Shown here in pieces: positions 10,748 through 31,201 of a DNA stretch of 64,000 nt. The notes under the pieces are model-generated. The model saw only the letters and a program-made list of their open reading frames with translations, searched no databases and had not been told where the DNA came from. Source of the stretch: Ensifer adhaerens (GTDB lineage: Bacteria; Pseudomonadota; Alphaproteobacteria; Rhizobiales; Rhizobiaceae); NCBI RefSeq assembly GCF_001270265.1, contig NZ_LGAP01000032.1, forward strand, positions 1 to 64,000. Reading direction: 5' to 3'. The translations under genes were made by a program, and so were the position numbers. The first letter of the stretch is position 1; every line of letters begins with the position of its first letter.

Positions 10748-10783
10748 GATACCGTAAGTATCCTGAAATGAATCAGCTGTCAA
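10748..10783 (-). promoter_or_regulatory. promoter with GATAC-N5-GTATC operator before the P450 operon (site A)
   Basis: The palindrome GATACCGTAAGTATC spans 10748-10762, with outer TTTCAG/CTGAAA arms extending the symmetry. On the minus strand TTGACA (10783-10778) and TACTTA (10760-10755) are 17 bases apart, a good sigma-70 promoter pointing at the P450 gene. The operator therefore covers the -10 element. It is one of seven such sites in the window. Confidence 0.75.
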
Positions 10784-10894
10784 TGAGCGGCGGGATTTCC
10801 TGCGAGATTCAGGGCGGCCTTTCCACTCGGAGCGGCAAATCTTCGGTTCATTCGTGTGCCAGCCGGCCAAAGGCGAGATGGCCTTGCCTTTTCG

Positions 10895-10910
10895 GATACG
10901 CTTTGGTATT
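10895..10910 (+). promoter_or_regulatory. GATAC-N6-GTATT site before the zinc dehydrogenase gene (site G)
   Basis: GATACGCTTTGGTATT lies 39-54 bases upstream of the dehydrogenase ATG. It matches the operator half-sites seen elsewhere with one mismatch and a 6-base spacer. A clear -35 hexamer is not visible at the spacing found for the other sites, so this is the weakest member of the set. Confidence 0.5.
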
Positions 10911-10948
10911 GGAAAACTATTGGGATCTAATGTTAATGGGAGGAAAAC

Positions 10949-12058
10949 ATGACGCAGACGATGCGTGCCGCGCGCTTGCACGCGGTTGGCGAGCCGATGA
11001 AAATTGAACAAGTCGCAAGACCGCTGGTCTCCGGCAGCGATGTCGTGGTCCAAGTCAAAGCCTGCGGAATGGTGCCCAATCTCGGCAACGTGCTTGCGAA
11101 CTGGGAGACGTGGTATCCCCAGATGCCACTGCCGCCGCGGCCTGCGATCCACGGCCTCGACCCTTCAGGGATCGTTCACCAGGTCGGCGAACAGGTCGTG
11201 GGCCTCAAGCCTGGGGACCGGGTCTACGTCAATCCCGGCCGTTTCTGTGGAGCCTGCCACGCCTGCTCGTCGGGCCATCCTCAGGCCTGCCAGCATTGGA
11301 CGCTCGGCGGCTACTTCGGCTACAATCCGAAGAGCCTGGAGATGTTCAAACGTTATCCCTACGGCGGATTCTGCGAATACATGCTGGCGCCGCAAGCGCA
11401 GGTCGTCAAAATTCCCGACAACATGTCTTTTGTGCAGGGATCGCGCATGGGCTATCTCGGCACGTCTTACGCCGCCTTGAAGAAATGCGGCCCATTGATG
11501 GGACGCTCGCTGATCATCAATGGCGCGACCGGAACCCTCGGGGTCGGAGTTACGCTCTTTGCGCTCGCCATGGGAGTCGGCAAGGTTTACGCAGTTGCGC
11601 GGGGCGACGAGTTGCTCGCCCGCCTGAAGGCGCTTGCCCCAAACAGAATCGAAACCTTCTCGAACCGGACCGGCTCCACCGCTGAATTCGTTAAAACCAA
11701 AACCGGCGGTATCGGTGCGGATCTGATGCTCGACACGCTTGGCGCCAAGGCTCCCCTGGAGTCCATGATCGACGCGATGAAGGGCGTTCGGCGCGGTGGC
11801 CGCATCATCAATATCGGTGGCACGGCGGGCGATCTGCCTGTCGATGTCAAATGGTGGATGGACGAACAAATGGAACTGATCGGCTCGGTCTGGTTCACCG
11901 CGGCCGAAGGCATGGAAATCGCCGCCATGGTCGAAGGCAATGTCGTAGACCTCTCGATTATGGAGCCGATGGTCTGGCCGCTGGAAGACATCAATGAAGC
12001 GATTTCCGGCGTGACCAAGGGCGACGGCGGCTTCACCTACTACGCCGTTACGCTCTAG
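10949..12058 (+). CDS. zinc-type medium-chain alcohol dehydrogenase with altered catalytic zinc site
   Basis: A 369-residue MDR-family dehydrogenase. The structural zinc cysteines are intact (C100, C103, C106, C114). The catalytic region departs from the norm: C39 is present but the usual CxxHxD is CGMVPNLGN, and the second-shell GHE motif reads IHGLD (H68 kept, E lost). The nucleotide-binding loop is GATGTLGVGV. ATG 10949 follows GGGAGG. It is transcribed divergently from the P450 operon. It may oxidise an alcohol or reduce an enone in the aromatic route; the altered ligands could mean no catalytic zinc. Its N-terminus is echoed by a remnant at 15065-15223. Confidence 0.85.
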   Translation: MTQTMRAARLHAVGEPMKIEQVARPLVSGSDVVVQVKACGMVPNLGNVLANWETWYPQMPLPPRPAIHGLDPSGIVHQVGEQVVGLKPGDRVYVNPGRFCGACHACSSGHPQACQHWTLGGYFGYNPKSLEMFKRYPYGGFCEYMLAPQAQVVKIPDNMSFVQGSRMGYLGTSYAALKKCGPLMGRSLIINGATGTLGVGVTLFALAMGVGKVYAVARGDELLARLKALAPNRIETFSNRTGSTAEFVKTKTGGIGADLMLDTLGAKAPLESMIDAMKGVRRGGRIINIGGTAGDLPVDVKWWMDEQMELIGSVWFTAAEGMEIAAMVEGNVVDLSIMEPMVWPLEDINEAISGVTKGDGGFTYYAVTL

Positions 12059-12102
12059 CCGACAGGCGAAGCGGGCATCAGAACGACTGTGACTAAACGC
12101 GA

Positions 12103-12130
12103 GCCTGGCCCCCCATTCAGGGGGGCAGGC
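12103..12130 (+). terminator. GC-rich hairpin after the dehydrogenase gene
   Basis: GCCTGGCCCCCC and GGGGGGCAGGC pair with one bulge around an ATTCA loop, 45 bases after the stop. There is no strong T-run, so it may be a weak or bidirectional terminator between two convergent operons. Confidence 0.5.
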
Positions 12131-13200: not shown

Positions 13201-13776
13201 TCAGTTGTTTCGTGCGAGGTTTCTTTTGGCCGTCCAAGACGCGATATAGTCCATCAGGCCCGGTGACAGGCAGTCGTATGTGGGAAGTCCCAAATCATTG
13301 AGACGTTGACGGACCCCATCCATCATTTCCGGCCCGACGCCGGCTTCGATGATCGAGGAGACGAAGGCTGCAAAACCGGGCTCCTGCCATCCGCTCTCCT
13401 GGAAGCGTTCGGGGTGGATGAAATCAAGGCCCTGGAAGGGGTGATCCCGCTCCACTGGTCCGTACATGTGTACGCCACATTCCGTGCAGGCGTTCCGCTG
13501 GATCAGCGCCGACGGATCGACTACCGCCAGCTTGTCGCCGTTTTCGAGCACGCTGACCTTGTCGTGCGGTGCGACCGCGACCATGGAAAAGACCGCACCT
13601 TCCGGCTTCCAGCATTTGGTGCAGCCACAGGCGTGGTTATGGGCGATGGCGCCCTCGACCCTGATTTTGACGGGGCGTTCGGTGCAGGCGCAGATCAGTA
13701 CGCCGCCCGAAAACTCCCCGGTACTCCTGGATACGCCATTGTCGAGCAGGGGATGTATCGAGATCGAATTTGTCAT
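13201..13776 (-). CDS. gfa: S-(hydroxymethyl)glutathione synthase
   Basis: A 191-residue Gfa protein. It has the family's zinc-binding cysteines: C29-x-C31, C50-x-C52-x2-C55 (CGCTKCW) and C97-x2-C100. Gfa binds glutathione and is reported to promote condensation of formaldehyde and glutathione, the substrate of FlhA encoded immediately upstream. ATG 13776 is preceded by GAGGAA; a longer frame to 13827 is not needed. A second copy ends at 164, so the region carries two. Confidence 0.9.
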
Positions 13777-13854
13777 GGGTTCCTCACTATGCCGGCCTCT
13801 GAAACGGATCCGGGCGCCGGCTCGCACCGTGTCGCGTTTGCGGCTGTCTCTTTT

Positions 13855-14967
13855 TCAGTAGACGACGACCGAGCGGATCGACTTGCCCTCATGCATCAGA
13901 TCGAAGGCAGTATTGATCTCCTCCAGCGGCATGGTGTGGGTGATGAGATCGTCGATGTTGATCTTGCCTTCCATGTACCAATCGACGATTTTCGGAACGT
14001 CGGTCCGTCCACGCGCGCCTCCGAAGGCACTGCCTTTCCATACGCGGCCGGTCACCAGCTGGAATGGTCTTGTCGATATCTCCTTGCCGGCTTCCGCGAC
14101 ACCGATGACGATCGATTCACCCCAGCCGCGATGGCAGCATTCCAGCGCCTGGCGCATCACAGTCGTGTTGCCGGTGGCATCGAAGGAGAAATCGACGCCG
14201 CCGCCGGTCAGATCCTGGATCGCCTGCACAACCTTGTCGGAGCCGACATCCTGCGGATTGATAAAGTCGGTCATGCCGAATTTGCGGGCCATTTCGACCT
14301 TGGCCGGATTGAGGTCCACGCCGATGATCCGGTCGGCGCCGACCATGCGGGCGCCCTGGATGACATTGAGACCGATGCCGCCAAGGCCGAAGACGGCAAC
14401 AGTCGCGCCCGGCCAGACCTTTGCGGTGTAGATCACCGCGCCTATGCCCGTGGTTACCCCGCAGCCGATGTAGCAGATCTTGTCGAACGGCGCGTCTTCG
14501 CGGATCTTGGCGAGCGCGATCTCCGGTAGCACCGTGAAATTCGAGAAGGTCGAGCAGCCCATATAGTGGAAGATTTCTCCGGCATCGCAGGAGAAGCGGG
14601 TGCTCTTGTCCGGCATCAGCCCCAGCCCCTGCGTCCCTCGAATTGATGTGCAGAGGTTGGATCGCCGTGAAAGACAGGTTTTGCACTCCCGGCATTCCGG
14701 CGTGTAGAGCGGAATAACGTGGTCACCAACCCTGAGCGAGGTCACGCCCGGGCCGACCTCTCTCACAATGCCGGCGCCCTCATGGCCGAGGATTGCCGGG
14801 AACTTGCCTTCGGAATCGAGACCCGAAAGCGTGTAGGCATCGGTGTGGCAGACGCCCGTCGCCATGATCTCGATGAGGACCTCACCGGTCCTGGGGCCGC
14901 CGATGTCGATCGTTTCGATGGTCAGAGGTTTGTTGGCCGCCCAAGCGACCGCAGCGCGCGATTTCAT
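13855..14967 (-). CDS. flhA: S-(hydroxymethyl)glutathione dehydrogenase / class III alcohol dehydrogenase
   Basis: A 370-residue class III zinc alcohol dehydrogenase that oxidises S-hydroxymethylglutathione to S-formylglutathione with NAD+. Catalytic zinc ligands C40 (in TGVCHTDAY) and H62 (GHEGAG), structural cysteines C92, C95, C98 and C106, and a Rossmann motif GLGGIGLNV are all present, unlike the neighbouring dehydrogenase at 10949. ATG 14967 follows AAGGG; a longer frame upstream runs through a gene remnant. Together with gfa next door and fghA at 6545 it completes the GSH-dependent oxidation of formaldehyde to formate. Confidence 0.92.
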
Positions 14968-15064
14968 GTGGAATCCCTTGTCGCGACGCGGGCATGTCCC
15001 GCATTCGTTGCAGTTAAGAAAGACCGGCGGTGTCCAGCGGCCCGTACGCGTGTGTCGGAGATGA

Positions 15065-15223
15065 CTAGAGCGGTAGGTGCTGCCGCCCGATGATGCGCTT
15101 GGCTCCGGAAATTGCTGCCTGACGGCCAGGGTCCGGTTCGGATGCGCTGACGCCTTCGACCGTGTCGATTGCAAGCGGCTCTCCGCTGGCGATCAGTCGC
15201 GCCGCGCGCATCAATTCGGCCAT
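15065..15223 (-). pseudogene. N-terminal remnant of a zinc dehydrogenase paralogue (52 codons)
   Basis: A short frame with a strong ribosome site (GGGAGGAAAACC before ATG 15223) encodes [20 protein letters not shown], which aligns with MTQTMRAARLHAVGEPMKIE of the dehydrogenase encoded at 10949 (13 of the first 22 positions identical). The similarity then ends and the frame stops at 15065. It is the 5' stub of a duplicated dehydrogenase gene, now sitting before flhA. It may still be translated and could serve as a leader to flhA. Confidence 0.65.
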
Positions 15224-15269
15224 GGTTTTCCTCCCTTTCCTCTACCCGGCGAACGGGTTGGGTTTCCTA

Positions 15270-15307
15270 TTGACGTTCGTGCTGGTCTGTAGATACTATC
15301 AGGTATC
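15270..15307 (+). promoter_or_regulatory. promoter with GATAC-N6-GTATC operator before the second SBP gene (site B)
   Basis: GATACTATCAGGTATC spans 15292-15307. TTGACG (15270-15275) and TACTAT (15294-15299) are 18 bases apart and point towards the SBP-DoxX pair. On the other strand TTGCAA and TATCTA are 17 apart, so it may also serve the leftward flhA cluster. Confidence 0.72.
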
Positions 15308-15416
15308 TGAAATTGCAAGGCGCATCTTTGAATTGGCGAGATGCTGACTTGCGGAGGAAGAAATGCCGGCGCGACCCTGGGAGGACGCGTGCGCGTTTTG
15401 AAATTGGGAGGTGGGA

Positions 15417-16358
15417 ATGTTCAATGTAGCCGGCGGCCACCAGGCGCAAAAGCATGAGTTGAAGGATATCGTTCTGGCAGGCGGTGCGCTCGGCCTCAAT
15501 TGGCTACCGGTCCATCTTGCCCTTTGCGCAGGAATATTCGAGGCAAGCGGATTGCGCGTATCTCTCAAGAGGACAGGTAGCGCCGAGAAAGCGACAGCCG
15601 CAGTCAAAGCGGGGGAGGCCGATCTTGCGATCACGCCACCGGAGGGCGCCATTGCCGATAACGTTGCCGGGGGCGCGATGCGCATCCTGGCTGGAAACGT
15701 CAACCGCCTGCCGCTATCGCTGATTGCCAATCCCCGCTTTACTCGGATCGAGGAGTTGAAAGGGAAGGTGCTCGGCACATCCTCCATGACCGAGGGAACG
15801 GCGATCTACACGCGCGAAATGCTCTCGCGATGCGGCCTCGACTATCCAGTGGATTACCAACTCTGCGTGGTCGATACGCATCCGGCGCGGTGGAAAGCGC
15901 TCCAGGAAGGAAAGATTGACGCGGCAGTGCTGCCGCTCAACTTTGTCGGTGTGGATGCGGGATATATCAATCTCGGGGAGTTCAGCGATTATATTCCAGA
16001 CATTGTGTACACCGCGATTGTCGGCCATCGAAGATGGGCGACCACACACCGTGAGCAGATCACGACGCTGCTGGCCGGACTGCGCGAAGCGACGGAATTT
16101 CTCTACGATTCCTCAAGTAACGCGCTGGCGCGATCGATCGTGATGGAAGTCGCCCAGACCGACGAACACTGCGGCCAACGCGCGCTCGACTACATGCGAG
16201 AGAAGGGCGTCTTTGCCCGGTCCCTGGAAGTCCCACCGGCAGCGCGCGAGACGACGCTGGATCTGATGATCGAGGCGAGCCGTCTCGATCCCGGCAAACG
16301 CGGTCTAGCATCGACAACATTCGATGAGTGCTTCATCGAAACCAAGATCGCAGCATAG
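15417..16358 (+). CDS. NMT1/THI5-like periplasmic-binding-fold protein without signal peptide, second copy
   Basis: A 313-residue paralogue of the protein encoded at 7459-8367. Shared motifs include GGALGLNWLPV, GEADLAITPPEGA, NVNRLPLSL, GTSSMTEGTAIYT and ETTLDLMIE. It has a charged, not hydrophobic, N-terminus (MFNVAGGHQAQKHELKDIVL), so it should stay in the cytoplasm, and no permease or ATPase of the matching family is nearby. ATG 15417 follows GGGAGG. It heads a two-gene operon with a DoxX-like protein. Transport, sensing or decarboxylase-type catalysis are all conceivable. Confidence 0.75.
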   Translation: MFNVAGGHQAQKHELKDIVLAGGALGLNWLPVHLALCAGIFEASGLRVSLKRTGSAEKATAAVKAGEADLAITPPEGAIADNVAGGAMRILAGNVNRLPLSLIANPRFTRIEELKGKVLGTSSMTEGTAIYTREMLSRCGLDYPVDYQLCVVDTHPARWKALQEGKIDAAVLPLNFVGVDAGYINLGEFSDYIPDIVYTAIVGHRRWATTHREQITTLLAGLREATEFLYDSSSNALARSIVMEVAQTDEHCGQRALDYMREKGVFARSLEVPPAARETTLDLMIEASRLDPGKRGLASTTFDECFIETKIAA

Positions 16359-16371
16359 GCGGAGAAAAACT

Positions 16372-16728
16372 ATGGAATTCACACTCGAGCCTATGGCTAT
16401 CCTGCGGGTGCTGTGCGGCATCTGGTTTATCCCGCATTGCATCGGGAAAATCAGGCACGTCGGTCCGGCTTCCGCGACATTTGCCAAAGCCGGATTTCAT
16501 CCCGCTCGGCTGTTCGTCATCGCGACGATCGTCGTGGAACTGATTGCCGGAACGGGCATGGTATTCAATATCCTTCCCCGGCTTGCGGCCGGCATGGCGG
16601 TCGCAGTCCTGCTGGGAGCCAGCTACGCCGTGGTCAAAATCAACGGATTGAACTGGCGATGGCAGAAGCAGGGGCCGGAATTCATGGTGTTCTGGTCATT
16701 GGCCTGTATTCTCTCCGTGCTTGATTGA
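16372..16728 (+). CDS. DoxX-like membrane protein
   Basis: A 118-residue protein with four predicted membrane helices, starting MEFTLEPMAILRVLCGIWFI and including ARLFVIATIVVELIAGTGMV and MAVAVLLGASYAVVKI. The size and topology fit the DoxX/DoxD superfamily, whose members associate with quinone or thiol redox chemistry; the role here is unknown. ATG 16372 follows GGCGGAGA, 13 bases after the SBP-like gene. Its stop overlaps the -35 element of the tetR promoter. Confidence 0.7.
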   Translation: MEFTLEPMAILRVLCGIWFIPHCIGKIRHVGPASATFAKAGFHPARLFVIATIVVELIAGTGMVFNILPRLAAGMAVAVLLGASYAVVKINGLNWRWQKQGPEFMVFWSLACILSVLD

Positions 16729-16760
16729 CGCCATATCGTTTTCGGGATACGCGTGGTATC
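16725..16760 (+). promoter_or_regulatory. promoter with GATAC-N5-GTATC operator before tetR (site F)
   Basis: GATACGCGTGGTATC spans 16746-16760. TTGACG (16725-16730) and TACGCG (16748-16753) are 17 bases apart. The regulator gene begins 32 bases later, as expected of an autoregulated TetR gene. Confidence 0.7.
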
Positions 16761-16792
16761 TGAGTGCTGGAGCAATCAAGGAGTGTAAGTTG

Positions 16793-17395
16793 ATGCGACT
16801 GACACGCGAACAGAGCCAGGCGCGGACGAAAGCAAAGTTGCTGGCGTCCGCGCGCGAAGTTGTTGCGCGCGACGGATACGAAGGCGCGACCGTCGAACGC
16901 ATCGCCGAGGAGGCGGGCTTCAGCAAGGGTGCGTTCTATTCCAACTTCAACGGGAAGGAAGACATCTTCCTTTATCTGCTGGAAACGCATTCCGGCGAAG
17001 ACGTTGTCGAACTGCAACGCCTTCTCGGGGACATCGAGGACGGACAGCTCTTCATTGATACTCTCAGCAACTGGGCGCAAGAGCGTTCAGCGGACCCAAG
17101 CTGGGGCATGCTGGCGCTGGAACTGTTTCGCCGCGCAAGACGCGATGCGACGTTTGGTGAGCGACACTCAAATCTGTTTCGTGCTCAGTGGGAGGGACTT
17201 GGAAAGATCCTCTTGCGTCTATTTCCGGAAGGTAAGGCGCCTGCCGAACCGGCGACGCTTGGTGGCATCGTATTCGAATTAACCTATGGAGCGGCATCCA
17301 GCTTCACCAACGGCCCGACCGTCGGTGAGTTGGTCAAGGTCGCGTTGAGCTCGATGTATAAGGCATATGGCGTGGGGCGCGAAACAGCCGGCTGA
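16793..17395 (+). CDS. TetR/AcrR-family transcriptional regulator
   Basis: A 200-residue protein with an N-terminal TetR helix-turn-helix (about residues 10-60: LLASAREVVARDGYEGATVE, then AEEAGFSKGAFYSNFNGKE) and a helical ligand domain. ATG 16793 is preceded by AAGGAG; an upstream frame would cross the operator. It sits in the middle of the catabolic island and directly behind operator site F, so it is the best candidate for the protein binding the seven GATAC-N5/6-GTATC sites. TetR operators are commonly short palindromes of this kind. The ligand is presumably the aromatic substrate or an intermediate. Confidence 0.88.
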   Translation: MRLTREQSQARTKAKLLASAREVVARDGYEGATVERIAEEAGFSKGAFYSNFNGKEDIFLYLLETHSGEDVVELQRLLGDIEDGQLFIDTLSNWAQERSADPSWGMLALELFRRARRDATFGERHSNLFRAQWEGLGKILLRLFPEGKAPAEPATLGGIVFELTYGAASSFTNGPTVGELVKVALSSMYKAYGVGRETAG

Positions 17396-17742
17396 TGCAT
17401 GCCCGCCGTTGGGTGCCGACCTGCTCCAATATGGGCGCCCGCATTCGATTATTCCTCGGAACGGAGGTTGTGCATCGATAGGCGCAGCGACTTGCAAGAC
17501 CGCGTGCAATGACAGGCAGCACGCCACTGTCATACGGAACCATCAAAGCGCCATCACGAAAACACGGGAAAATTGCCCTACAAGATCTGAATTGAACGTA
17601 TGGGTCCGGTGAAGCAGTCATAGTTGGGTTGGGAAGCGTCCACTTCAGTGGCACTCTTCGCTTTGTCTTGGAGTAAGCGGAGCCACAATTTCCCGACTCG
17701 AATGAACCTGAATTGCGCGTGATGGTCTATTTCCCCGACGCA
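17396..17742. other. gene-free stretch after tetR
   Basis: About 350 bases between convergent genes. I see no gene, operator copy or clear terminator in it. Confidence 0.4.
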
Positions 17743-18666
17743 TCATGCGCCGGAGAGGTCCTGTTTCCAGAACTGAAGCTGCTCAGGGGTGGAGGTGATA
17801 CCTCCACAAACGATCACCATTATATTCACCCAACCATGGATTTGTTCGAGGTTTTCATAGATCGCAGCAAGGCTTGCTCCACATGCTGGTTCGACCATGA
17901 TGCGATGGTCGTCAAGGAAGCGCAGAGAAGCATCAACCGCCTGCAAATCAGAAACAACCGCACAATCGATGTGATACTGGCGCGTGAGCGCAAAGGCGTG
18001 CTCCGAGACTTGGCGAGCACCGAGCGACGTCGCCACACTCGCGATTGTTGGAAGAACGACGCGTTGTCCCGCGGCAACCGACTGTGCAAATGAAGACGCT
18101 CCAAGCGTTTCGACCGCAAGAACAGGAATGTCGAGGCGATGACGCTGTAATCCCTCTACCACACCGCTGAGCAGTCCACCTCCGCCGACAGAAAGAACGA
18201 TCGCGTCGGGACGCAATCCGTCCTCCACGATTTCATCGATGATTGTGGAATGCCCTTTCCAGAGCAGCGGGTCGTCAAACGGGTGGATAAAGGCGTCAGC
18301 GATATCCAGCATCGACATGGCCAAATCATTCGCCTCCTGCCAGGAGGCGCCGTGCACGACAACCTGGGCCTCCAGATTCGATATGGTTTGCTGTGCACGT
18401 TCGGACGTCGTCTCAGGAACGACGACGGTCACGGGGATGCCAAGCTGCCGTCCCGCGTAAGCAACAGCAACGCCGGCATTGCCGCCTGACGAACTGACGA
18501 AGCGTTTGACCCCTCGACGGGCATGTTCCTCGCAAGCCAAGCCTATGCCGCGTATCTTGAAGGACCCCGATGGTTGAAGCGAGTCCAGCTTGATCGAGAC
18601 ATTTCGGCCGCATGCCTTCGACAGCGAGGCTGATACATAGGTAGGGGTTTTGAAGTGAAGTGGCAT
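17743..18666 (-). CDS. PLP-dependent serine/threonine dehydratase-like enzyme
   Basis: A 307-residue fold-type II PLP enzyme. The Schiff-base lysine is in PSGSFKIRG, the substrate-phosphate loop is SSSGGNAG and the PLP-phosphate loop GGGGLLSG. This layout and length match catabolic L-serine/threonine dehydratases, which deaminate to pyruvate or 2-oxobutyrate. There is no regulatory ACT domain. ATG 18666 follows GAAGG. It is transcribed alone, leftward, inside the island; its relation to aromatic degradation is unclear. A diaminopropionate or hydroxy-amino acid substrate cannot be excluded. Confidence 0.82.
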   Translation of the reverse strand: MPLHFKTPTYVSASLSKACGRNVSIKLDSLQPSGSFKIRGIGLACEEHARRGVKRFVSSSGGNAGVAVAYAGRQLGIPVTVVVPETTSERAQQTISNLEAQVVVHGASWQEANDLAMSMLDIADAFIHPFDDPLLWKGHSTIIDEIVEDGLRPDAIVLSVGGGGLLSGVVEGLQRHRLDIPVLAVETLGASSFAQSVAAGQRVVLPTIASVATSLGARQVSEHAFALTRQYHIDCAVVSDLQAVDASLRFLDDHRIMVEPACGASLAAIYENLEQIHGWVNIMVIVCGGITSTPEQLQFWKQDLSGA

Positions 18667-18869
18667 GGCTGACCTTCAGGGAATTGGTGGGAGCGGAAGT
18701 CCTGATGAACGGTCCTACGCGAGATTGCTAGTCCCAATTGGTCTAGCCAAGCAAGTCAGCATTTTTTCCGATTGCTGGCGTGGTCGATGCGTACTTCGCG
18801 GATGGCGTGGGAGGTTCTGGCTCAGTCGCGTAGTCGTCATGACAATCGATGGTCATGTTTACCTGGGCG

Positions 18870-18883
18870 GGACAAATTTGTCC
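18870..18883. promoter_or_regulatory. perfect 14-bp palindrome GGACAAATTTGTCC
   Basis: This exact inverted repeat lies between the dehydratase gene and the DoxX gene, about 200 bases upstream of the dehydratase start. It differs from the GATAC sites and may be an operator for a different regulator. Confidence 0.35.
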
Positions 18884-18908
18884 GCACGCCGCCCCTGAAC
18901 AGAACTTC

Positions 18909-18943
18909 GACGGGCCCGCGCGCGCTAGTTAGCGCGCCGGCCC
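18909..18943 (-). terminator. GC-rich hairpin after the leftward DoxX gene
   Basis: Long self-complementary arms (CGGGCCCGCGCGCGCTA and TAGCGCGCCGGCCCG, with mismatches) lie just beyond the DoxX stop. No T-run follows, so intrinsic termination is uncertain. Confidence 0.4.
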
Positions 18944-18955
18944 GCGTGGCAGAGC

Positions 18956-21195: not shown

Positions 21196-21196
21196 C

Positions 21197-23088: not shown

Positions 23089-23089
23089 C

Positions 23090-24328
23090 ATGCAATTACT
23101 GACTTCATCGAGGACGTCGCTTGCACTGCGGGCGTTCGCGCTGGCGGTGTTTGTCGCCGGGCCCTTGCACGCACAAGAGCCTTCGCCGGGGATCACGGAT
23201 GACGCCGTGAAGATCGGCATATCAGGGCCGCTCACCGGTCCGGTGGCCGCACTCGGGGCCATTGCCGACGGCGTGAGGACACGGATTGATCCGATCAATG
23301 CCGCTGGCGGCATCAAAATGGCCGATGGCAAAACGCGCAAGATCGAACTTGTCGTGGAGGACGACGGGCTGGATCCGCAACGTACGCTGACCAATGTCCG
23401 CAAGCTCGCCGAGCGGGAAGAGGTATTTGCTGTCCTTGCGACTGCGGGCACACCCAACAATCAGGCCATCGGACGCTACATCACGCAGCGCAGCGTTCCC
23501 AACCTGTTCATGTATTCCGGCGTTCACGAACTCTCCGGCCCTGAATGGGAGATCGGCTTTGTGCCGTCCTTCACCACGGAGGCCGCGACCTTTGCGAAGT
23601 ATCTATTGGACAACAAGCCTCAGGCCAAGATCGCGCTTCTCTATCTGAACACCGAAACAGGACAGACATTTCAGGCAGCATTGGAAAGTGCAATCAGCGG
23701 GTCGGGCGCCTCGATCGTCGCGGCTCAGCCCGTAACCTCGGCCGATCCCACTGTAGAGACGCAGCTTTCGACGCTGAAGGCTTCCGGGGCGGATACGCTT
23801 GTCGTCATCACCGGTCCAAAACAGGGCGCGGAGGCCGTGCGCTTTGCGACCGAAAGCGGCTGGAAGCCGACGACGCTCGTCTCCAATATCGCCGCGTCCA
23901 TCGCCTCCCTGAAGCCGGCGGGCCTCGAAAATGCCAAAGGGGTCATCACGAGCCAATTTCTGAAGCAGGTCAACGCATCGGCGCCCGGAGACGATGCTGG
24001 TGTGAAACGCTACCTGGCCGATCACGCGGCCGCTCAGTCGAAATTCTCGACCGACGACGCACTTGGCCAATCCGGCTACGCGATCGGCGACGCGCTGGCA
24101 AAGGTGCTTGAATCGATGAAGGCGCCAAGCCGCGAGGCAATGATGGAGGCGGCCCGCAATCTCGATCACACACAATTGGATTTGCTGCTGCCGGGGATCA
24201 CCCTGACGACGAAAGCCGGCGAGGATGTCTATCCGATTGAATCGCTCCAGCTGTTCCAGTTCGACGGGGCGGCCTATCAGCCGCTCGGCGATGTCATTTC
24301 GTTTGAAGGCAAGACACCGAAGCACTGA
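23090..24328 (+). CDS. Liv-type ABC transporter substrate-binding protein
   Basis: A 412-residue type I periplasmic binding protein. A Sec signal peptide (hydrophobic stretch LRAFALAVFVAGPLHAQ, cleavage near HAQ) is followed by IGISGPLTGPVAALG, the conserved opening of LivK/HAAT binding proteins. Start ATG 23090 follows GGGAGGAG, one base after the livM stop. Binding proteins of this subgroup often bind aromatic acids in bacteria that degrade them; the ligand here is not deducible from sequence. A terminator follows. Confidence 0.85.
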   Translation: MQLLTSSRTSLALRAFALAVFVAGPLHAQEPSPGITDDAVKIGISGPLTGPVAALGAIADGVRTRIDPINAAGGIKMADGKTRKIELVVEDDGLDPQRTLTNVRKLAEREEVFAVLATAGTPNNQAIGRYITQRSVPNLFMYSGVHELSGPEWEIGFVPSFTTEAATFAKYLLDNKPQAKIALLYLNTETGQTFQAALESAISGSGASIVAAQPVTSADPTVETQLSTLKASGADTLVVITGPKQGAEAVRFATESGWKPTTLVSNIAASIASLKPAGLENAKGVITSQFLKQVNASAPGDDAGVKRYLADHAAAQSKFSTDDALGQSGYAIGDALAKVLESMKAPSREAMMEAARNLDHTQLDLLLPGITLTTKAGEDVYPIESLQLFQFDGAAYQPLGDVISFEGKTPKH

Positions 24329-24352
24329 TCGAAAGAGCATCTGTGGTTTTCG

Positions 24353-24377
24353 AAGGGGGCGGGCTGCCCCCTTTTTT
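24353..24377 (+). terminator. Rho-independent terminator of the liv operon
   Basis: GGGGGC and GCCCCC pair across a GGGCT loop, flanked by AA, and are followed by TTTTTT, 25 bases after the binding-protein stop. Confidence 0.88.
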
Positions 24378-24437
24378 CGTGTCGGCAGGTCGCGGTCGCT
24401 TCAGGCGCTGATTCAACACCCCAATGCGAATTCACTA

Positions 24438-24474
24438 TTGACATTCCAATGAGAATTCGGATACTAATGGTATC
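24438..24474 (+). promoter_or_regulatory. promoter with GATAC-N5-GTATC operator before the ligK operon (site D)
   Basis: GATACTAATGGTATC spans 24460-24474. TTGACA (24438-24443) and TACTAA (24462-24467) are 18 bases apart. It lies between the liv terminator and the aldolase gene. Confidence 0.78.
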
Positions 24475-24558
24475 CTGAATTGAAGCCGGAGGAAGCTTCC
24501 AGATCAGTTAGCGGCAGTTTTGACGGCCGCTCCGAGATGGAGGTTACGGGAGGAAAGT

Positions 24559-25233
24559 ATGGCGAAGGTAGTTAGAAACGTGATGCGAACAGACGACGCC
24601 ATTGTTCGTGGTCTTGGCGAGTTGGGTGTCGCGACGGTTCATGAGGCGCAGGGGAGAAAGGGGTTGCTTGCCTCCTCGCTGCGCCCGATCTACCGGCCGG
24701 TAAAAATCTCCGGCAATGCGCTGACCTGCGAAGTGGCGCCTGGTGACAATTGGATGATCCATGTGGCGCTCGAGCAAGCCCGCCCAGGGGACATTCTCGT
24801 CGTTTCGCCGACCTCGCCTTGCGAGGACGGCTATTTCGGCGATCTGCTTGCCACGTCGGCAATGGCTCGCGGTATTCGCGGGCTGGTTATCGACGCAGGC
24901 GTTCGCGATATAGCCACGCTGACCGACATGGGGTTTCCCGTTTGGTCGAAGGCGGTTTCCGCGCAAGGGACCGTCAAGGAGACCTTGGCAAACGTACAGG
25001 TTCCGATTGTTTGCGCCGGATGTCTCGTTCGGCCAGGCGATGTGATCATCGCGGACGATGACGGCGTCTGCGTGGTGCCGGCGGAGAACGCTGCAGCCGT
25101 TCTGGAAAAGGGCCGAAGCAGGGAGCGGATGGAGGAGGAGAAGCGCCAGCGTTACGCGGCCGGAGAACTCAGCCTCGACGTCAACGACATGCGACCCAAA
25201 CTCTTGCAGGAGGGGCTTGTCTATGTCGACTGA
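24559..25233 (+). CDS. 4-carboxy-4-hydroxy-2-oxoadipate aldolase / oxaloacetate decarboxylase (LigK-like, RraA fold)
   Basis: A 224-residue RraA-like protein with the features of class II pyruvate aldolases: [10 protein letters not shown], the magnesium/pyruvate loop [20 protein letters not shown] and GVRDIATL with the conserved R and D. LigK (also ProA, GalC) cleaves 4-carboxy-4-hydroxy-2-oxoadipate to pyruvate and oxaloacetate, the step after LigJ. RraA-like RNase E inhibitors are shorter and lack its catabolic context. ATG 24559 follows GGGAGGAAAGT. It heads an operon with cupin, ferredoxin reductase, ferredoxin and transhydrogenase genes. Confidence 0.87.
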
Positions 25234-25780
25234 AATCAGTGCCAGAGTGCCGCGCCGCGTGGTGACCGGTATCCGTGACGGCAAGTCCGTTTTCGTCAGC
25301 GACGGCGCGGTTCCGAACGCCCATCTGCATCAATCCATCCCCGGCTTCATGACGTCTGTCTGCTGGGCGACGCCCTCACAATTAAGTCTTCCGCTCGATC
25401 GCGGCGACCCATCTCTTCGGGGAATCAGCATACCACCTGCTCCGGGCGAGACGCGTTTGATGATCGTGCAATTTCCACCAGATTCCGTCATGGCTGATCC
25501 GTCCTTCGACCCGGTCGCCGCCGACGCGGAGCAACACCAATATCTGCCCGGCCTTGCTGAGCTCTTCGAGCGCGAGGCACCCGGCATGCACACGACGGAC
25601 ACGGTCGACTACGACGTCGTACTCGAAGGTGACATCTGGCTGGAGCTCGACGATGGCGCGGAGGTTCATCTTCGCCAGGGTGATGTCGCCATCCAGTGCG
25701 GCACTCGTCATGCCTGGCGCAACAAGGGCACGTCGCCGGCAACCATGGCTTTTATCCTGATTGGCGCGACGCGGCCCTGA
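25223..25780 (+). CDS. single-domain cupin protein
   Basis: A 185-residue protein with a C-terminal cupin barrel. Motif 1 is partial ([20 protein letters not shown]), with H and a downstream E; motif 2 ([17 protein letters not shown]) has the expected H. The start ATG lies inside the end of ligK (11-base overlap) behind GCAGGAGG. Cupins of this size in aromatic operons are often annotated without function; a metal-dependent isomerase, hydrolase or dioxygenase role is conceivable. It is worth testing as the missing ring-cleavage or tautomerase activity. Confidence 0.75.
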
Positions 25781-25853
25781 GGCAAGCGTCGGCGATCAAG
25801 CCCGGATCAAACCTGACCAATACGAGATTGCGCCAACTGGGAGGAGCGCGACG

Positions 25854-27068
25854 ATGGATTACGATTGTCTTATCGTGGGCAGCGGGCATGGCGGCGTTCA
25901 GGCGGCTGTCTCGCTTCGCCAGCATGGTTTTGCCGGGTCGATCGGCCTTGTCAGCGATGACCGCGATCTGCCCTATGAGCGCCCGCCGCTGTCCAAGGAT
26001 TATCTGGCTGGCGCCAAGCCATTCGAGCGTATTCTCATTCGCCCACCCGAATTCTGGGCCACACGGAACATCGATCTTCTGCTCGGCAACGAGGTCACGA
26101 GATTGGACGCGACAGAAAAGCGCGTTTCTTGTGCGAATGGTGCAGCCTTCGGCTATGGGCAGCTGATCTGGGCGGCCGGAGGTCGGCCGCGCAAAATGAC
26201 CTGTGCCGGTCACGAGCTTCGCGGCATCCATTCCGTGCGCAATCGGGCCGATGTCGACGGGATCATGAATGAACTTGCCAGCGTCCAGCGCGTGGTCGTC
26301 ATCGGAGGCGGCTATATCGGGCTTGAGGCGGCGGCCGTTCTGACCAAGCTCGGCAAGGCAGTTGTCGTCGTGGAGGCGATGGACCGCGTTCTTGCCCGCG
26401 TAGCGGCCGAGCCCCTCTCTCGTTTCTACGAGAAGGAGCATCGCGATCATGGCGTCGATATCAGATTGGCAACCGGTATCGAGAGCTTCGTTGGGAACGA
26501 TGGGCGCCTGAGCGGCGTACGGCTGACGGATGGCGAAATGCTGGCTGCCGACATGGCGATCGTCGGGATCGGCATTCTGCCCTGTGTCGAACCGCTTGTT
26601 GTTGCAGGTGCTGCTGGACGCAACGGCGTCGATATCGACGACCATTGCCGAACCAGCCTGGCCGACGTGTTCGCCATCGGTGATTGCGCGCGCATGGTCT
26701 CCGGCCATGGCCTGCGGATCGAGTCCGTCCAGAATGCGAGCGACCAGGCCACCGCTGTGGCGAAGACATTGTGTGGAGGGCCGGCGCCCTACAGCGCCGT
26801 TCCCTGGTTCTGGTCCAATCAATACGATCTGCGTCTGCAGACTGTCGGACTTTCGAGTGGATACGATCAGACTGTCGTCCGGGGTGATCCGAACGAGCGA
26901 AAGTTCAGCGTCGTCTATCTCCGGGACGGCGTTGTCGTCGCGCTCGACTGCGTCAACGCAGTCAAGGATTACGTCGAGGGCCGCGCACTTGTTGAGGGCC
27001 GAGCGCGCATCGCTGCCGATATTTTGGCCGACAACGGCATCGCTTTGAAATCGTTGGTGAACAGGTGA
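25854..27068 (+). CDS. FAD-dependent ferredoxin reductase (putidaredoxin/rhodocoxin reductase type)
   Basis: A 404-residue flavoprotein. The N-terminal FAD loop is GSGHGGVQAA, followed by ERPPLSKDYL, an NAD(P)-binding GGGYIGLEAA and the second FAD motif FAIGDCA. This is the usual architecture of the NADH-dependent reductase of class I P450 systems. ATG 25854 follows GGGAGGAG; the longer frame is untranslated. With the 2Fe-2S ferredoxin encoded next it should transfer electrons to the P450 at 9422, to which it is linked by the shared operator. Confidence 0.9.
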   Translation: MDYDCLIVGSGHGGVQAAVSLRQHGFAGSIGLVSDDRDLPYERPPLSKDYLAGAKPFERILIRPPEFWATRNIDLLLGNEVTRLDATEKRVSCANGAAFGYGQLIWAAGGRPRKMTCAGHELRGIHSVRNRADVDGIMNELASVQRVVVIGGGYIGLEAAAVLTKLGKAVVVVEAMDRVLARVAAEPLSRFYEKEHRDHGVDIRLATGIESFVGNDGRLSGVRLTDGEMLAADMAIVGIGILPCVEPLVVAGAAGRNGVDIDDHCRTSLADVFAIGDCARMVSGHGLRIESVQNASDQATAVAKTLCGGPAPYSAVPWFWSNQYDLRLQTVGLSSGYDQTVVRGDPNERKFSVVYLRDGVVVALDCVNAVKDYVEGRALVEGRARIAADILADNGIALKSLVNR

Positions 27069-27120: not shown

Positions 27121-27438
27121 ATGTCTACATTTACAGTAATCACGCGCACCGGCCAGGTCGTCCCGGTTGAGGGACGGAATGGCGTGTCGGTCATGGAGCA
27201 TATCCGCGACGCAGGCCTGGACGAACTCCTTGCGCTCTGCGGCGGCTGCTGTTCCTGCGCAACCTGCCATGTCTATGTTGATGACGACATAAAGGTTCGT
27301 CTGCCGGCGCTTTCGATCGATGAGGACGAACTGCTCGACAGTTCGGACTATCGGAAGGCGCAGTCGCGCCTTTCTTGCCAGCTTCCGTTCACACCGGAGC
27401 TCGAAGGCATGATCGTCGTCCTGGCGCCGGAAGATTGA
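27121..27438 (+). CDS. 2Fe-2S ferredoxin, putidaredoxin type
   Basis: A 105-residue adrenodoxin/putidaredoxin-type ferredoxin. Cluster cysteines are arranged C-x5-C-x2-C in LCGGCCSCATCHV plus a distal C in RLSCQLPF, as in P450 redox partners. Two extra cysteines lie inside the cluster loop (CGGCC). ATG 27121 is preceded by GGGAGG. It is the immediate neighbour of the reductase gene and would shuttle one electron at a time to the P450. Confidence 0.9.
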   Translation: MSTFTVITRTGQVVPVEGRNGVSVMEHIRDAGLDELLALCGGCCSCATCHVYVDDDIKVRLPALSIDEDELLDSSDYRKAQSRLSCQLPFTPELEGMIVVLAPED

Positions 27439-27494
27439 TCACGCCGACGCAATCTACGGCATCGGAAATCGCAGTCTCTCGGAAGGAACCACGG

Positions 27495-28634
27495 GTGCAG
27501 CACAAAATATTCATACCAAAAGAAACCAGTGAATCTGAAGGCCGTGTTGGCGGCTCTCCCGAGAGCGTCAAGAAGCTGAAGTCGCTCGGTTTTGATGTCG
27601 TCGTTCAGGCGGAGGCCGGCACGTTGTCGCGCATTCCGGACAGCGAGTTCGAAAATGCGGGTGCGCGGATAGGCTCTGCCGCAGACGCGGCGAATGCCGA
27701 TGTGGTTTTGAAGGTGCGCCGCCCAACGTCCCCTGAGGTTGCAACCTATAAGTCCGGCGCCATCGTGCTGGCGATCATGGACCCCTATGGCAACGAACAA
27801 GCGCTCGATGATATGGCGAAGGCCGGTGTTTCCGCCTTTGCGATGGAACTGATGCCGCGCATCACGCGGGCCCAATCGATGGATGTGCTGTCGAGCCAGG
27901 CCAACCTTGCCGGCTACCAGGCCGTGATGGATGCTGCCACTGAATTCGATCGCGCCATGCCGATGATGATGACAGCGGCGGGCACTGTTCCAGCCGCGAA
28001 AGTCTTCGTTATGGGCGCCGGCGTTGCCGGTCTGCAGGCGATCGCCACGGCACGGCGTCTCGGCGCGGTTGTCTCGGCGACAGACGTGCGTCCAGCCTCG
28101 AAGGAACAGGTCGCCTCGCTCGGCGCCAAGTTCATCGCCGTCGAGGACGAGGAGTTCAAGGCGGCCGAAACATCGGGTGGTTATGCCAAGGAAATGTCGG
28201 CGGAATACAAGGCCAAGCAGGCGGCGCTGACCGCCGAGCATCTGGCCAAGCAGGATATCGTCATTACCACGGCTCTCATTCCGGGTAGGCCGGCGCCGCG
28301 GCTCATCACCCGCGAGATGCTGAAGGCGATGAAGCCCGGCTCGGTCGTCGTCGATCTTGCCGTCGAACGTGGCGGCAATGTCGAGGGTGCTATTGCTGAT
28401 CAAGTGGTCGAGGTCGAGGGCGTCAAGGTCGTCGGTTATTTGAACATGCCCGGCCGCATCGCCGCATCCGCCTCGGCGCTCTACGCCAAGAACCTTTTCA
28501 CCTTCCTGGAGACGATGGTGTCGAAGGAGTCAAAGGCGCTGGCGCTCGACATGGAAGATGAGTTGATCAAGGCGACGGCGCTCACTCATGGCGGCGTAAT
28601 CGTTCATCCGAATTTTGGGGGAGGGCAGAGCTGA
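27495..28634 (+). CDS. pntAA: proton-translocating NAD(P) transhydrogenase subunit alpha part 1 (domain I)
   Basis: A 379-residue NAD(H)-binding subunit. It starts [16 protein letters not shown] and carries the nucleotide loop [18 protein letters not shown], the alanine dehydrogenase/PNT fold. The start is GTG 27495 behind GGAAGG; there is no better ATG. It forms, with PntAB and PntB, the membrane enzyme that uses proton motive force to reduce NADP+ with NADH. Being in the same operon as the P450 redox partners is unusual and implies an NADPH demand. Confidence 0.9.
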
Positions 28635-29053
28635 TGGCCAATGACGCTTTGAACAAAGCATTGGAAGGTCTTGACCACGCACTCATAGCTGTACGGCAAG
28701 CGGCAGACAGCGTGCCGGATGTCGCGGCCGTTGCCGGCGCTTTGGCACATGGAGCCACCGGCGGCGCAATCGATCCGTTTATCTTCCAGCTGGCGATCTT
28801 CGCGCTGGCGATTTTCGTCGGCTACTACGTCGTCTGGTCGGTGACGCCGGCGCTGCACACGCCATTGATGGCTGTGACCAACGCGATCTCCTCGGTGATC
28901 GTCGTCGGCGCGCTGCTCGCGGTCGGGATCTCGGCCTCGGGGCTTGCCGCCGGCTTCGGCTTCGTCGCTTTGCTGCTGGCCTCGGTCAACATCTTCGGCG
29001 GCTTCCTGGTCACCCAGCGGATGCTCGCCATGTACAAGAAAAAAGAAAAGTGA
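28634..29053 (+). CDS. pntAB: proton-translocating NAD(P) transhydrogenase subunit alpha part 2
   Basis: A 139-residue membrane subunit with three to four helices: [39 protein letters not shown] and [20 protein letters not shown]. This split form, with pntA in two genes, is typical of alphaproteobacteria. The start overlaps the pntAA stop by one base, and pntB follows after 9 bases. Confidence 0.9.
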
Positions 29054-29062
29054 GACCGGTTG

Positions 29063-30463
29063 ATGAACGCTAACTTTTCAGCCTTCCTCTATCTCGTTTC
29101 CGGTGTGCTGTTTATCACGGCACTGCGCGGCCTGTCGCATCCGACCACCAGCCGCAAGGGCAATATCTATGGCATGATCGGAATGGGTATTGCCATCGTC
29201 ACGACGCTGCTCCTGGCAAAGCCCACCTTCGGCGGTTTCCTGCTGATCGTGCTCGGCCTTGCCATCGGCGGCGGTGCCGGCGCGGTGATTGCCCGGCGTA
29301 TCGCCATGACCTCGATGCCGCAGCTGGTTGCCGCCTTTCACTCGCTCGTTGGTTTGGCGGCAGTCATGGTTGCCGCGGCGGCGATGCATGCGCCCGAGAG
29401 CTTCGGCATCGGCGCCATCGGTGATATCCACCCGCAGGCGCTGGTCGAAATGTCGCTCGGCGTGGCCATCGGCGCCATCACCTTCACCGGCTCGATCATC
29501 GCCTTCCTGAAGCTGGACGGGCGTATGTCCGGCAAGCCGATCCTTCTGGCCGGCCGTCATGTATGCAACGCAGTGTTCGCCATCGCGCTTGTAGTCCTGG
29601 TGATCATGCTCGTTGGAACTCAGAGCACCACGGTCTTCTGGCTCATCGTTGCGCTGTCGTTGGCACTCGGCGTTCTCTTGATCATCCCGATCGGTGGCGC
29701 CGACATGCCCGTCGTCGTCTCGATGCTCAATTCCTATTCGGGCTGGGCCGCGGCCGGTATTGGCTTTACGCTCGGCAACCTCGCGCTGATCGTTACCGGT
29801 GCGCTGGTCGGCTCGTCCGGCGCGATCCTCTCCTACATCATGTGCAAGGGCATGAATCGTTCCTTCATCTCGGTCATTCTCGGTGGCTTTGGTGGCGGGG
29901 CGGCGGCAGCCGCTGCCGATGACGGCGTCAGCCGCACGGTCAAGCAAGGTTCGGCAGACGACGCCGCCTTCCTGATGTCGAATGCCTCCAAGGTGATCAT
30001 CGTTCCGGGTTACGGCATGGCCGTAGCCCAGGCACAGCATTCACTGCGCGAAATCGGCGATCAGTTGAGGGCCGCCGGCGTCGATGTGAAATATGCGATC
30101 CATCCCGTGGCCGGACGCATGCCGGGTCATATGAACGTGCTGCTCGCCGAAGCAAACGTCCCGTATGACGACGTCTTTGAACTCGAAGACATCAATTCCG
30201 AATTCGCCCAGGCCGACATTGCCTATGTCATTGGCGCCAACGACGTCACCAATCCGGCGGCCCGCGACGACAAGACCTCGCCGATCTACGGCATGCCAAT
30301 CCTTGACGTCGACAAGGCCAAGACCTGCCTCTTCGTCAAGCGCTCACTCGGCTCCGGTTATGCCGGTATCGACAACACGCTGTTCTACAAGGACGGCACC
30401 ATGATGCTGCTCGGCGACGCCAAGAAGGTCACCGAAGACATCGTCAAGGCCATGGCGCACTAA
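29063..30463 (+). CDS. pntB: proton-translocating NAD(P) transhydrogenase subunit beta
   Basis: A 466-residue subunit: an N-terminal membrane part of about eight or nine helices (to about residue 260), then the NADP(H)-binding domain III with VPGYGMAVAQAQHSLREI and RMPGHMNVLLAEANVPYD. It completes the transhydrogenase complex. I chose ATG 29063. It is the last gene of the site D operon; a decayed chemoreceptor fragment follows. Confidence 0.9.
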   Translation: MNANFSAFLYLVSGVLFITALRGLSHPTTSRKGNIYGMIGMGIAIVTTLLLAKPTFGGFLLIVLGLAIGGGAGAVIARRIAMTSMPQLVAAFHSLVGLAAVMVAAAAMHAPESFGIGAIGDIHPQALVEMSLGVAIGAITFTGSIIAFLKLDGRMSGKPILLAGRHVCNAVFAIALVVLVIMLVGTQSTTVFWLIVALSLALGVLLIIPIGGADMPVVVSMLNSYSGWAAAGIGFTLGNLALIVTGALVGSSGAILSYIMCKGMNRSFISVILGGFGGGAAAAAADDGVSRTVKQGSADDAAFLMSNASKVIIVPGYGMAVAQAQHSLREIGDQLRAAGVDVKYAIHPVAGRMPGHMNVLLAEANVPYDDVFELEDINSEFAQADIAYVIGANDVTNPAARDDKTSPIYGMPILDVDKAKTCLFVKRSLGSGYAGIDNTLFYKDGTMMLLGDAKKVTEDIVKAMAH

Positions 30464-30553
30464 CGTCTGAGCCGTGGTCCGTAACGTTGACCCCGGATGC
30501 AATTTCATTGGCGCCAACTCTTTGAGATCAATTCTTCTGAATCGGGTTCAGGC

Positions 30554-30799
30554 ATGGGCATATTTTCGCGTCGTCGCGGCAAGAATTCTGGTGGAGCCAT
30601 TCCAGTACAAGGCGCAGCGAGCGCCGAGAAGGGTTATAGCTTTTTGCAGAGCAAATGCGGCGTCGGTCTCTGGGGCGTGCTTATCCACGAAAAAGCGCTC
30701 GTGCATCCCGCCAATCGCTGAAATTGGTCTCCGGAATTTTATCGTCTACTCGGCCTCCAGGCCGAACCTTCTCCGGAACTAACGGCAGCAGATAGATGA
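30554..30799 (+). pseudogene. 5' fragment of a methyl-accepting/PAS-domain protein with internal stop
   Basis: ATG 30554 opens MGIFSRRRGKNSGGAIPVQG, then EKGYSFLQSKCGVGLWGVLI and HEKALVHPANR. An in-frame TGA at 30719-30721 stands where tryptophan is expected, and the frame resumes as NWSPEFYRLLGL before stopping at 30799. This resembles the first PAS domain of rhizobial chemoreceptors or signalling proteins. The rest of the protein is absent, so it is a dead fragment. Confidence 0.65.
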
Positions 30800-31003
30800 C
30801 TCAGTGCCGGTGGCGACGACAAGCCGGATTCGGGCCTTTTGCGGTCTCAAACAGTTAGTGGGCACAATCGCGTGCCCGTAGAGAAGCAGCGTTCGCGTAT
30901 TGGCCACGCCACCGCGCTTGATGGAATTTCACAATATTTCACCTCTCGTTTGTTCACTCCATGAATAGCCCAGCCTTGAGGAAGGGATCCTGCAGCTCGA
31001 CAC

Positions 31004-31039
31004 TTGACAGACCTTAAGTATTAAAATACCGTAAGTATT
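31004..31039 (+). promoter_or_regulatory. promoter with AATAC-N5-GTATT operator (site E)
   Basis: AATACCGTAAGTATT (31025-31039) is a fully symmetric half-site pair sharing its core with site A. TTGACA (31004-31009) and TACCGT (31027-31032) are 17 bases apart. It precedes the membrane protein-yceI pair. Confidence 0.72.
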
Positions 31040-31196: not shown

Positions 31197-31201
31197 CTTC
31201 G

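Follow-up and report, generated by a model that had tools for sequence, protein, structure and literature searches.

A predicted TetR-controlled regulon for methoxyaromatic catabolism in Ensifer adhaerens with tandem palindromic operators

Ensifer adhaerens appears to encode a coordinated gene set for the breakdown of methoxylated aromatic compounds on the DNA analysed here, the first 64,000 nucleotides of contig NZ_LGAP01000032.1 (assembly GCF_001270265.1), hereafter the window. Based on our sequence analysis, the TetR-family regulator encoded from position 16793 very probably controls this whole methoxy-aromatic gene set. In the full model, in which we have high confidence, TetR would be an autoregulated, inducer-released repressor of the entire island acting via tandem operators. 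The sites, their conservation and phasing, their overlap with promoters and their linkage to TetR can be read from the DNA, and from these the model predicts binding, occupancy by two dimers, repression, an inducer and a substrate. TetR would repress its own gene and the island by binding GATAC-N6(5)-GTATC palindromes against the -10 side of sigma-70-type promoters, with a second dimer usually on a weaker palindrome centred exactly 18 base pairs (bp) further along. The dimer pair would cover the region from -35 to -10, excluding RNA polymerase. Release would come from a pathway product or substrate, probably a methoxylated hydroxybenzoate or a derivative, and would switch on together uptake through the liv transporter, O-demethylation by the P450, the ligJ and ligK steps and formaldehyde disposal. 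Autoregulated TetR repressors of catabolic genes are already known, MbdR among them, and the half-site here resembles that of DarR; what is new is the tandem arrangement at 18 bp and the evolutionary account of the spacer. The regulator gene and the main operators in the window are the following.

16793-17395, plus strand: predicted TetR repressor gene (PF00440, 53 bits, cut-off 24); judging by relatives, the start may be TTG at 16790
10748-10762, minus strand: main operator GATAC-N5-GTATC, P450 promoter; -35 TTGACA at 10778-10783 (minus strand)
10895-10910, plus strand: main operator GATAC-N6-GTATT, Zn-dependent dehydrogenase promoter; one mismatch, without TTGAC
15292-15307, plus strand: main operator, N6, exact, SBP2-DoxX1 promoter; -35 TTGACG at 15270-15275; formaldehyde dehydrogenase and GFA genes divergent
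16746-16760, plus strand: main operator, N5, exact, tetR promoter; -35 TTGACG at 16725-16730
19577-19592, plus strand: main operator, N6, exact, livGFHM-SBP promoter; -35 TTGACA at 19555-19560
24460-24474, plus strand: main operator, N5, exact, ligK promoter; -35 TTGACA at 24438-24443
31025-31039, plus strand: main operator AATAC-N5-GTATT, membrane protein-yceI promoter; -35 TTGACA at 31004-31009

All seven of these inverted repeats, first listed in an earlier note on this DNA, are present in the window's letters. Five are exact (10748, 15292, 16746, 19577 and 24460), while 10895 has one mismatch and 31025 has two, placed symmetrically (AATAC/GTATT). Shuffles of the window lead to an expectation of 0.02 exact sites in 64 kilobases (kb), against the five observed. 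Across the whole genome (7.46 Mb) there are seven exact GATAC-N5/6-GTATC sites, and the window holds five of them; the probability that at least five of seven would share a single 64 kb stretch by chance is 1e-9. Long open frames contain the remaining two, with no TTGAC in the flanks inspected; one of these frames, judged by eye, we take to resemble rpoB. The exact core alone was rejected as a genomic marker, as all 10 TetR-lacking genomes tested have between 1 and 15 exact matches each. Therefore, the regulon claim rests on clustering, promoter context, an operator profile and the composite operator described below.

With regard to promoter context, TTGACA or TTGACG lies 15-16 nucleotides before the operator at six of the seven window sites, which confirms the earlier placement of this hexamer 17-18 nucleotides ahead of the operator TAC; 10895 is the one without. 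Of 73 sites in total, 56 have TTGAC at a distance of 15-16 nucleotides, and in the window 19577 is flanked by TTGAC on both sides, the second one toward the divergent DoxX2 gene. A consensus promoter scan of positions 15000 to 25000 returned four promoter-like pairs where 3.1 were expected, so the number itself is no evidence; all four are located at three operators (15270 with two spacings, 19555 and 24438), and the tetR promoter was not recovered. The downstream units named in the earlier note (P450-ligJ-SBP-fghA, SBP-DoxX, tetR, livGFHM-SBP, ligK to pnt, and membrane protein-yceI) stand, but that list was incomplete. It left out the Zn-dependent dehydrogenase gene at 10949 directly downstream of 10895, the formaldehyde dehydrogenase and GFA genes divergent from 15292, and a second DoxX gene divergent from 19577.

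The same arrangement is found in other bacteria. TetR homologues that occur with the same genes are about 56-93% identical, and the promoters of these genes carry the operator. A scan for TetR gave 14 relatives, three at 88-93% identity over the best segment (Phyllobacterium brassicacearum, L008; Sinorhizobium shofinae, L009; and Ensifer BR816, L010) and 11 rhizobia at 59-60%. All 14 keep the island genes wholly or partly around TetR in varying order (some loci end early), and they share the operators, mostly with the -35 at a fixed distance. The rhizobial replicons with the predicted regulon include pNGR234b of Sinorhizobium fredii NGR234. All 19 aligned homologues have almost the same recognition helix, in which Lys45 and Gly46 never vary. 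The protein model is all-helical (pLDDT 81.5 in the best of five models, 47-51 in the other four) and matches TetR structures; model and fold search add only that the predicted fold is TetR-like.

Operators with at most one mismatch were counted upstream of the island genes in 31 loci, some from near-duplicate strains, the counts overlapping where divergent genes share a site. They are found upstream of the P450 gene in 12 of 12 regions, the Zn-dependent dehydrogenase in 22 of 22, formaldehyde dehydrogenase in 20 of 21, DoxX1 in 23 of 24, DoxX2 in 8 of 8, livG in 13 of 15, SBP2 in 1 of 1, ligK in 9 of 18 and tetR in 11 of 29. None of the 86 regions upstream of seven genes grouped as internal by their place in the window carries a site (pntA 0/8, GFA 0/14, fghA 0/5, ligJ 0/13, cupin 0/17, ferredoxin reductase 0/17 and livH 0/12). 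Sites are likewise lacking in the 13 regions of the membrane protein, whose own site in the window has two mismatches. For the other internal genes the counts are 2 of 13 (SBP1) and 5 of 17 (yceI), the latter being 5-bp one-mismatch matches inside the mapped membrane-protein gene of the Rhizobium loci inspected, which are gone once mapped genes are excluded.

An operator profile (R1), built from 33 sites and from sequence only, ranks the island top in its own genome. Its best match is at E <= 0.0146 in all seven TetR-bearing genomes tested, four of which supplied training sites while G138, G194 and G029 did not. In 10 TetR-lacking genomes nothing falls below E 0.31, six having no match at E <= 5 and four having matches at E 0.31-2.2. 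Among 297 family genomes sampled, 13 match TetR at E <= 1e-15 and seven, the Ensifer genome itself included, at E <= 1e-35; the six that reach only the first threshold, at 31-37% identity, were classed as TetR-lacking. Twenty plasmid records carry TetR homologues; of the 11 examined, 9 have operator-profile matches, the one in L083 reaching just E 0.1. Of four TetRs with 41-48% identity, three retain the operator among different neighbours, beside tetR in L083 and L084 and within the efflux operon of tetR in L082, the fourth (L085) having none. In Rhizobium sp. BT03 (L091), TetR sits behind pntAB, with no recognisable operator on the plasmid.

These data bear on whether the palindromes could instead be bound by another regulator, such as a GntR, IclR or LysR protein or a global factor, with TetR a mere neighbour. 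Aromatic gene sets are often under other families, for example the GntR-type VanR2 and LysR-type GalR for syringate (PMC12314914), and a LysR-type gene, recognized by eye from its translation, is present at 2517 in the window. Yet mapping a set of window proteins onto the 14 relatives, themselves found via TetR, recovered no regulator other than TetR, the comparison being confined to that set. Moreover, the operator recurs in unrelated gene contexts with three TetR homologues of 41-48% identity, and its composite form is absent without TetR. We consider control by another regulator very unlikely.

New here, as judged from the sequence, is that the operator is composite, with a tandem 18-bp architecture missed by the first reading. 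The palindromes neighbouring the main operators in the window, none assigned a strand, are as follows.

10730-10745: second palindrome CATAC-N6-GTTTT, 18 bp from 10748; 1 of 8 core bases off
10913-10927: second, weaker palindrome AAAAC-N5-GGATC beside 10895; 2 of 8 core bases off
19559-19574: second palindrome CATAC-N6-GACTT; 2 of 8 off, the outer half overlapping the -35 of the 19577 promoter
24442-24457: second palindrome CATTC-N6-GAATT beside 24460; 2 of 8 off
31008-31022: neighbouring palindrome CAGAC-N5-GTATT beside 31025; 1 of 8 off
31042-31057: neighbouring palindrome GAGTC-N6-GTATG beside 31025; 2 of 8 off

Five of the seven window sites have a neighbour within two of eight mismatches, and 31025 has one on each side. 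Among 73 distinct sites (146 flanks in 41 similarity clusters), 32 flanks from 19 clusters have GTAT at an outward distance of exactly 13 bases from the palindrome, against at most three flanks at any other offset from 0 to 44. In those 32 rows an A at +3 and a C at +6 are invariant, which suggests the skeleton of a degenerate left half-site. The consensus is GATAC-N6-GTATS-N3-ANNC-N6-GTATG-NNAA, a tandem palindrome pair with an 18-bp period. The 31 loci hold 104 exact ATAC-N6-GTAT sites (65 distinct sequences, orthologous sites and near-duplicate strains not being independent), of which 73 have a second palindrome with at most two of eight mismatches at period 18. A period of 36, twice 18, is found in 14, a period of 12 in eight, and periods of 16 and 17 in one each. 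Shuffled flanks averaged 0.68 period-18 pairs and never exceeded 4 (200 trials), where 74 were observed. Perfect double palindromes occur twice in Paraburkholderia (L082, 8982-9015 and 11298-11331), where they precede genes of an efflux cluster containing the related TetR, and once in Agrobacterium (L086); L082 was not among the sites from which the 13-base offset was derived.

The exact composite pattern is present in 8 of 394 family genomes. Where TetR was also tested (384 genomes), it occurs in 8 of 9 TetR-bearing genomes, defined by a homologue at E <= 1e-35, and in none of the 375 others (Fisher 8e-16). As the pattern was derived from TetR-linked sites, the weight lies on its absence elsewhere. 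Given the orthologous units, the three distant TetRs and this absence in 375 of 375 TetR-lacking genomes, the comparison supports the proposal of the earlier note that the operators define one regulon under the local TetR.

A simpler account of the 18-bp phasing would have a single TetR dimer per operator, with the phased sequence a by-product of the -35 box and an ancestral duplication. In accord with it, the outer half-site often overlaps the -35, TCAA following it in 17 of 32 rows (-35-like TTGA), and several sites have weak second palindromes. The remaining 15 of 32 rows are without TCAA and nevertheless keep offset 13, A+3 and C+6 do not vary in any row, and the two perfect double operators of Paraburkholderia speak against the by-product explanation, which we regard as unlikely. 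Beyond the two-dimer operator, it is possible, though we lean slightly against it, that this TetR subfamily uses phased arrays in which two, at some promoters three, dimers would line up next to one another at 18-bp intervals, with the outer half-site in many cases also serving as the -35 and the dimers tolerating 10- and 11-bp half-site phasing. If so, how strongly and in what order the units are induced would depend on array length and spacer length. We know of no TetR operator of phased 18-bp array form, and none was found in a literature search of titles and abstracts.

The earlier note had the spacer alternating between 5 and 6 bp. The mixture is borne out, but alternation is not the right description, as 6 bp is the rule. 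Near island genes, 66 of 72 distinct sites with at most one mismatch have a 6-bp spacer and six have 5 bp. Exact half-sites are found there 36 times at 6 bp, six times at 5 bp and never at 2-4 or 7-12 bp; the sites with one mismatch number 30 at 6 bp, none at 5 bp and four in total at other lengths. In the window genome, 5-bp sites precede the P450, tetR and ligK genes, along with 31025 (two mismatches); in Phyllobacterium L008 they are found at ligK and at the membrane gene (two mismatches), and they also occur in both tetR promoters of G064 (L094). The P450 promoter has N5 in the window versus N6 in L008, the tetR promoter N5 in the window versus N6 in L008, L009 and L010, and the ligK promoter N5 in the window and L008 versus N6 in L009 and L010. 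Since the Phyllobacterium orthologue has 6 bp at P450 and tetR, 5 bp looks to be a derived variant; it is commonest in the window genome. Half-site centres are 10 bp (N5) or 11 bp (N6) apart, bracketing the 10.5-bp helical turn, which may be why both are kept and other lengths are missing. A further idea, that outer TTCA/TGAA arms compensate for a 5-bp spacer, was dropped because the L008 tetR promoter has the same arms with a 6-bp spacer.

The 5-bp sites might also have lost function in this lineage, the regulon shrinking to three 6-bp sites. Half-site spacing is critical in AmtR, where a one-base change decides binding (PMC2723105), and the 6 bp of relatives at the P450, tetR and ligK promoters makes that length look ancestral. 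Nonetheless, half-sites are perfect in all six distinct 5-bp sites with at most one mismatch versus 36 of 66 6-bp sites, a comparison in which sites are not independent and 31025, with two mismatches, lies outside the count. Such a loss seems improbable.

Several observations weigh against the model of a TetR repressing the whole island through tandem operators. No site lies directly before tetR in 18 of 29 regions; in many of these, tetR comes after a paired DoxX gene that has the site in front of it. The TetRs of L091 (54% identical, on a 654 kb plasmid) and L085 (44%) are without operator match, as the profile matches neither their loci nor the rest of their plasmids. The L083 site carries a mismatch and does not outscore another position on that plasmid, and G064 has two TetR copies yet no exact composite pattern. 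In the window, the second palindromes at 15292 and 16746 are weak, with three of eight core bases off each. Given the spacing sensitivity of AmtR, binding at the 5-bp sites could be poor or lost here.

The genes of the island in the window are listed below with the evidence for each.

9422-10612, minus strand: cytochrome P450, GcoA-like (PDB 8u09 E 6e-83, GcoA 5ncb E 1e-71)
8397-9434, minus strand: ligJ, 4-oxalomesaconate hydratase (PDB 6dwv E 1e-141)
7459-8373, minus strand: NMT1-like binding protein SBP1 (family match)
6545-7462, minus strand: esterase-family protein, probable S-formylglutathione hydrolase (PF00756; the corresponding L088 gene is annotated fghA)
10949-12058, plus strand: Zn-dependent dehydrogenase (family match)
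13201-13827, minus strand: S-(hydroxymethyl)glutathione synthase, GFA (TIGR02820 over cut-off)
13855-14964, minus strand: S-(hydroxymethyl)glutathione dehydrogenase (TIGR02818 over cut-off)
15411-16358, plus strand: NMT1-like binding protein SBP2 (family match)
16324-16728, plus strand: DoxX-like protein 1 (open reading frame; corresponding L088 gene annotated DoxX)
18956-19360, minus strand: DoxX-like protein 2, divergent from liv (open reading frame; corresponding L088 gene annotated DoxX)
19691-24328, plus strand: livGFHM and binding protein, branched-chain-type ABC transporter (permeases and binding protein by Pfam, ATPases by L088 annotation)
24520-25233, plus strand: ligK, 4-carboxy-4-hydroxy-2-oxoadipate aldolase (TIGR02798 over cut-off)
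25223-25780, plus strand: cupin protein, no assigned function (Cupin_2 just below cut-off and PDB 3es1 E 3e-18, both for a longer frame from 25058)
25761-27068, plus strand: FAD-dependent ferredoxin reductase, then a 2Fe-2S ferredoxin-like frame
27375-30463, plus strand: pntA-pntB NAD(P) transhydrogenase (family match)
31070-32656, plus strand: membrane protein (by eye, no family match) and YceI-like protein (below NCBIfam cut-off)

The GcoA-type similarity of the P450 points to methoxyaromatic demethylation as its predicted activity; the other structure that it matches, 8u09, we take to be the syringol demethylase SyoA. In Agrobacterium L086, an operator match (L086:9104, E 0.012) precedes a relative (5tl4, E 6e-55) of LigM, a vanillate/3-O-methylgallate demethylase, and a DesA-like protein is encoded nearby (below cut-off). 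On this plasmid the DesA/LigM-like demethylase genes adjoin the island (L086:5342-10696). Given the P450, LigJ, LigK, the glutathione-linked formaldehyde enzymes and the LigM-like gene of L086, the substrates are probably methoxylated hydroxybenzoates. A whole-genome search found no ring-cleavage dioxygenase of the LigB family (PF02900), and a small cupin gene is found between ligK and the ferredoxin reductase in the window, L086, L088 and L092; this cupin is therefore a candidate for the ring-cleavage enzyme. Inspected by eye, SBP1 (7459-8373) and SBP2 (15411-16358) lack an obvious signal peptide; they may be cytoplasmic enzymes, not transporter parts. Inside the island, between tetR and DoxX2, is a gene for a PLP-dependent enzyme (PF00291, 17743-18666), which is outside the set mapped onto the 14 relatives. 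Left of the island, a Rieske oxygenase and reductase (214-2542) and the LysR-type gene (2517-3575) resemble betaine demethylation genes by eye.

Among the closest known systems is MbdR of Azoarcus sp. CIB, a TetR repressor of 3-methylbenzoate catabolism with operator ATAC-N10-GTAT (PMC4424350), whose structure, 4uds, is the best of 182 matches to the TetR profile (E 8.5e-15). Like the island, the MbdR system has ATAC/GTAT palindromes repeated at a number of catabolic promoters and at the promoter of the regulator gene itself. However, its spacer is N10, while the island has N6 (some N5) and a second palindrome phased by 18 bp, and 10-bp-spacer sites near island genes number zero. DarR of mycobacteria and Rhodococcus has an operator, TAGATACTCCGGAGTATCTA, that contains GATAC-N6-GTATC, and the Lys-Gly of its recognition helix reads the TXC of GATAC (PMC10636190). 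Both the palindrome and the recognition-helix Lys-Gly are shared with the island TetR. DarR also places two dimers on one operator, the second on a poor half-site, as is proposed for the island TetR. Profile similarity between them, however, is limited to the DNA-binding part (E 3e-9), DarR binds cyclic nucleotides, and its palindromes overlap within 20 bp, while those counted at the island operators, with at least 6 of 8 core bases, mostly lie side by side 18 bp apart.

AmtR of Corynebacterium glutamicum is likewise a TetR-family repressor with a six-base half-site spacing, which it requires, whereas 5 and 6 bp coexist in the island (PMC2723105). QacR and CprB also place pairs of TetR-family dimers on one operator, an arrangement that the tandem palindromes suggest for the island; the QacR and CprB dimers lie on opposite sides of one short operator, while the island palindromes are tandem and adjacent (PMC4150764, PMC6018408). 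Syringate catabolism in Pseudomonas sp. NGC7 similarly combines O-demethylation, gallate-type lower steps and a formaldehyde dehydrogenase under specific control, but with a VanAB demethylase and GntR/LysR control where the island has a P450 and TetR (PMC12314914). A literature search of titles and abstracts found nothing on the regulon described here.

The predicted regulon for catabolism of methoxylated, lignin-type aromatics on rhizobial replicons thus has its regulator, operators and promoters named. Orthologous promoters differ naturally in having 5- or 6-bp spacers, so that the spacing tolerance of a TetR dimer can be tested directly. The 18-bp arrays would be an unusual layout for cooperative binding and for a methoxyaromatic biosensor.

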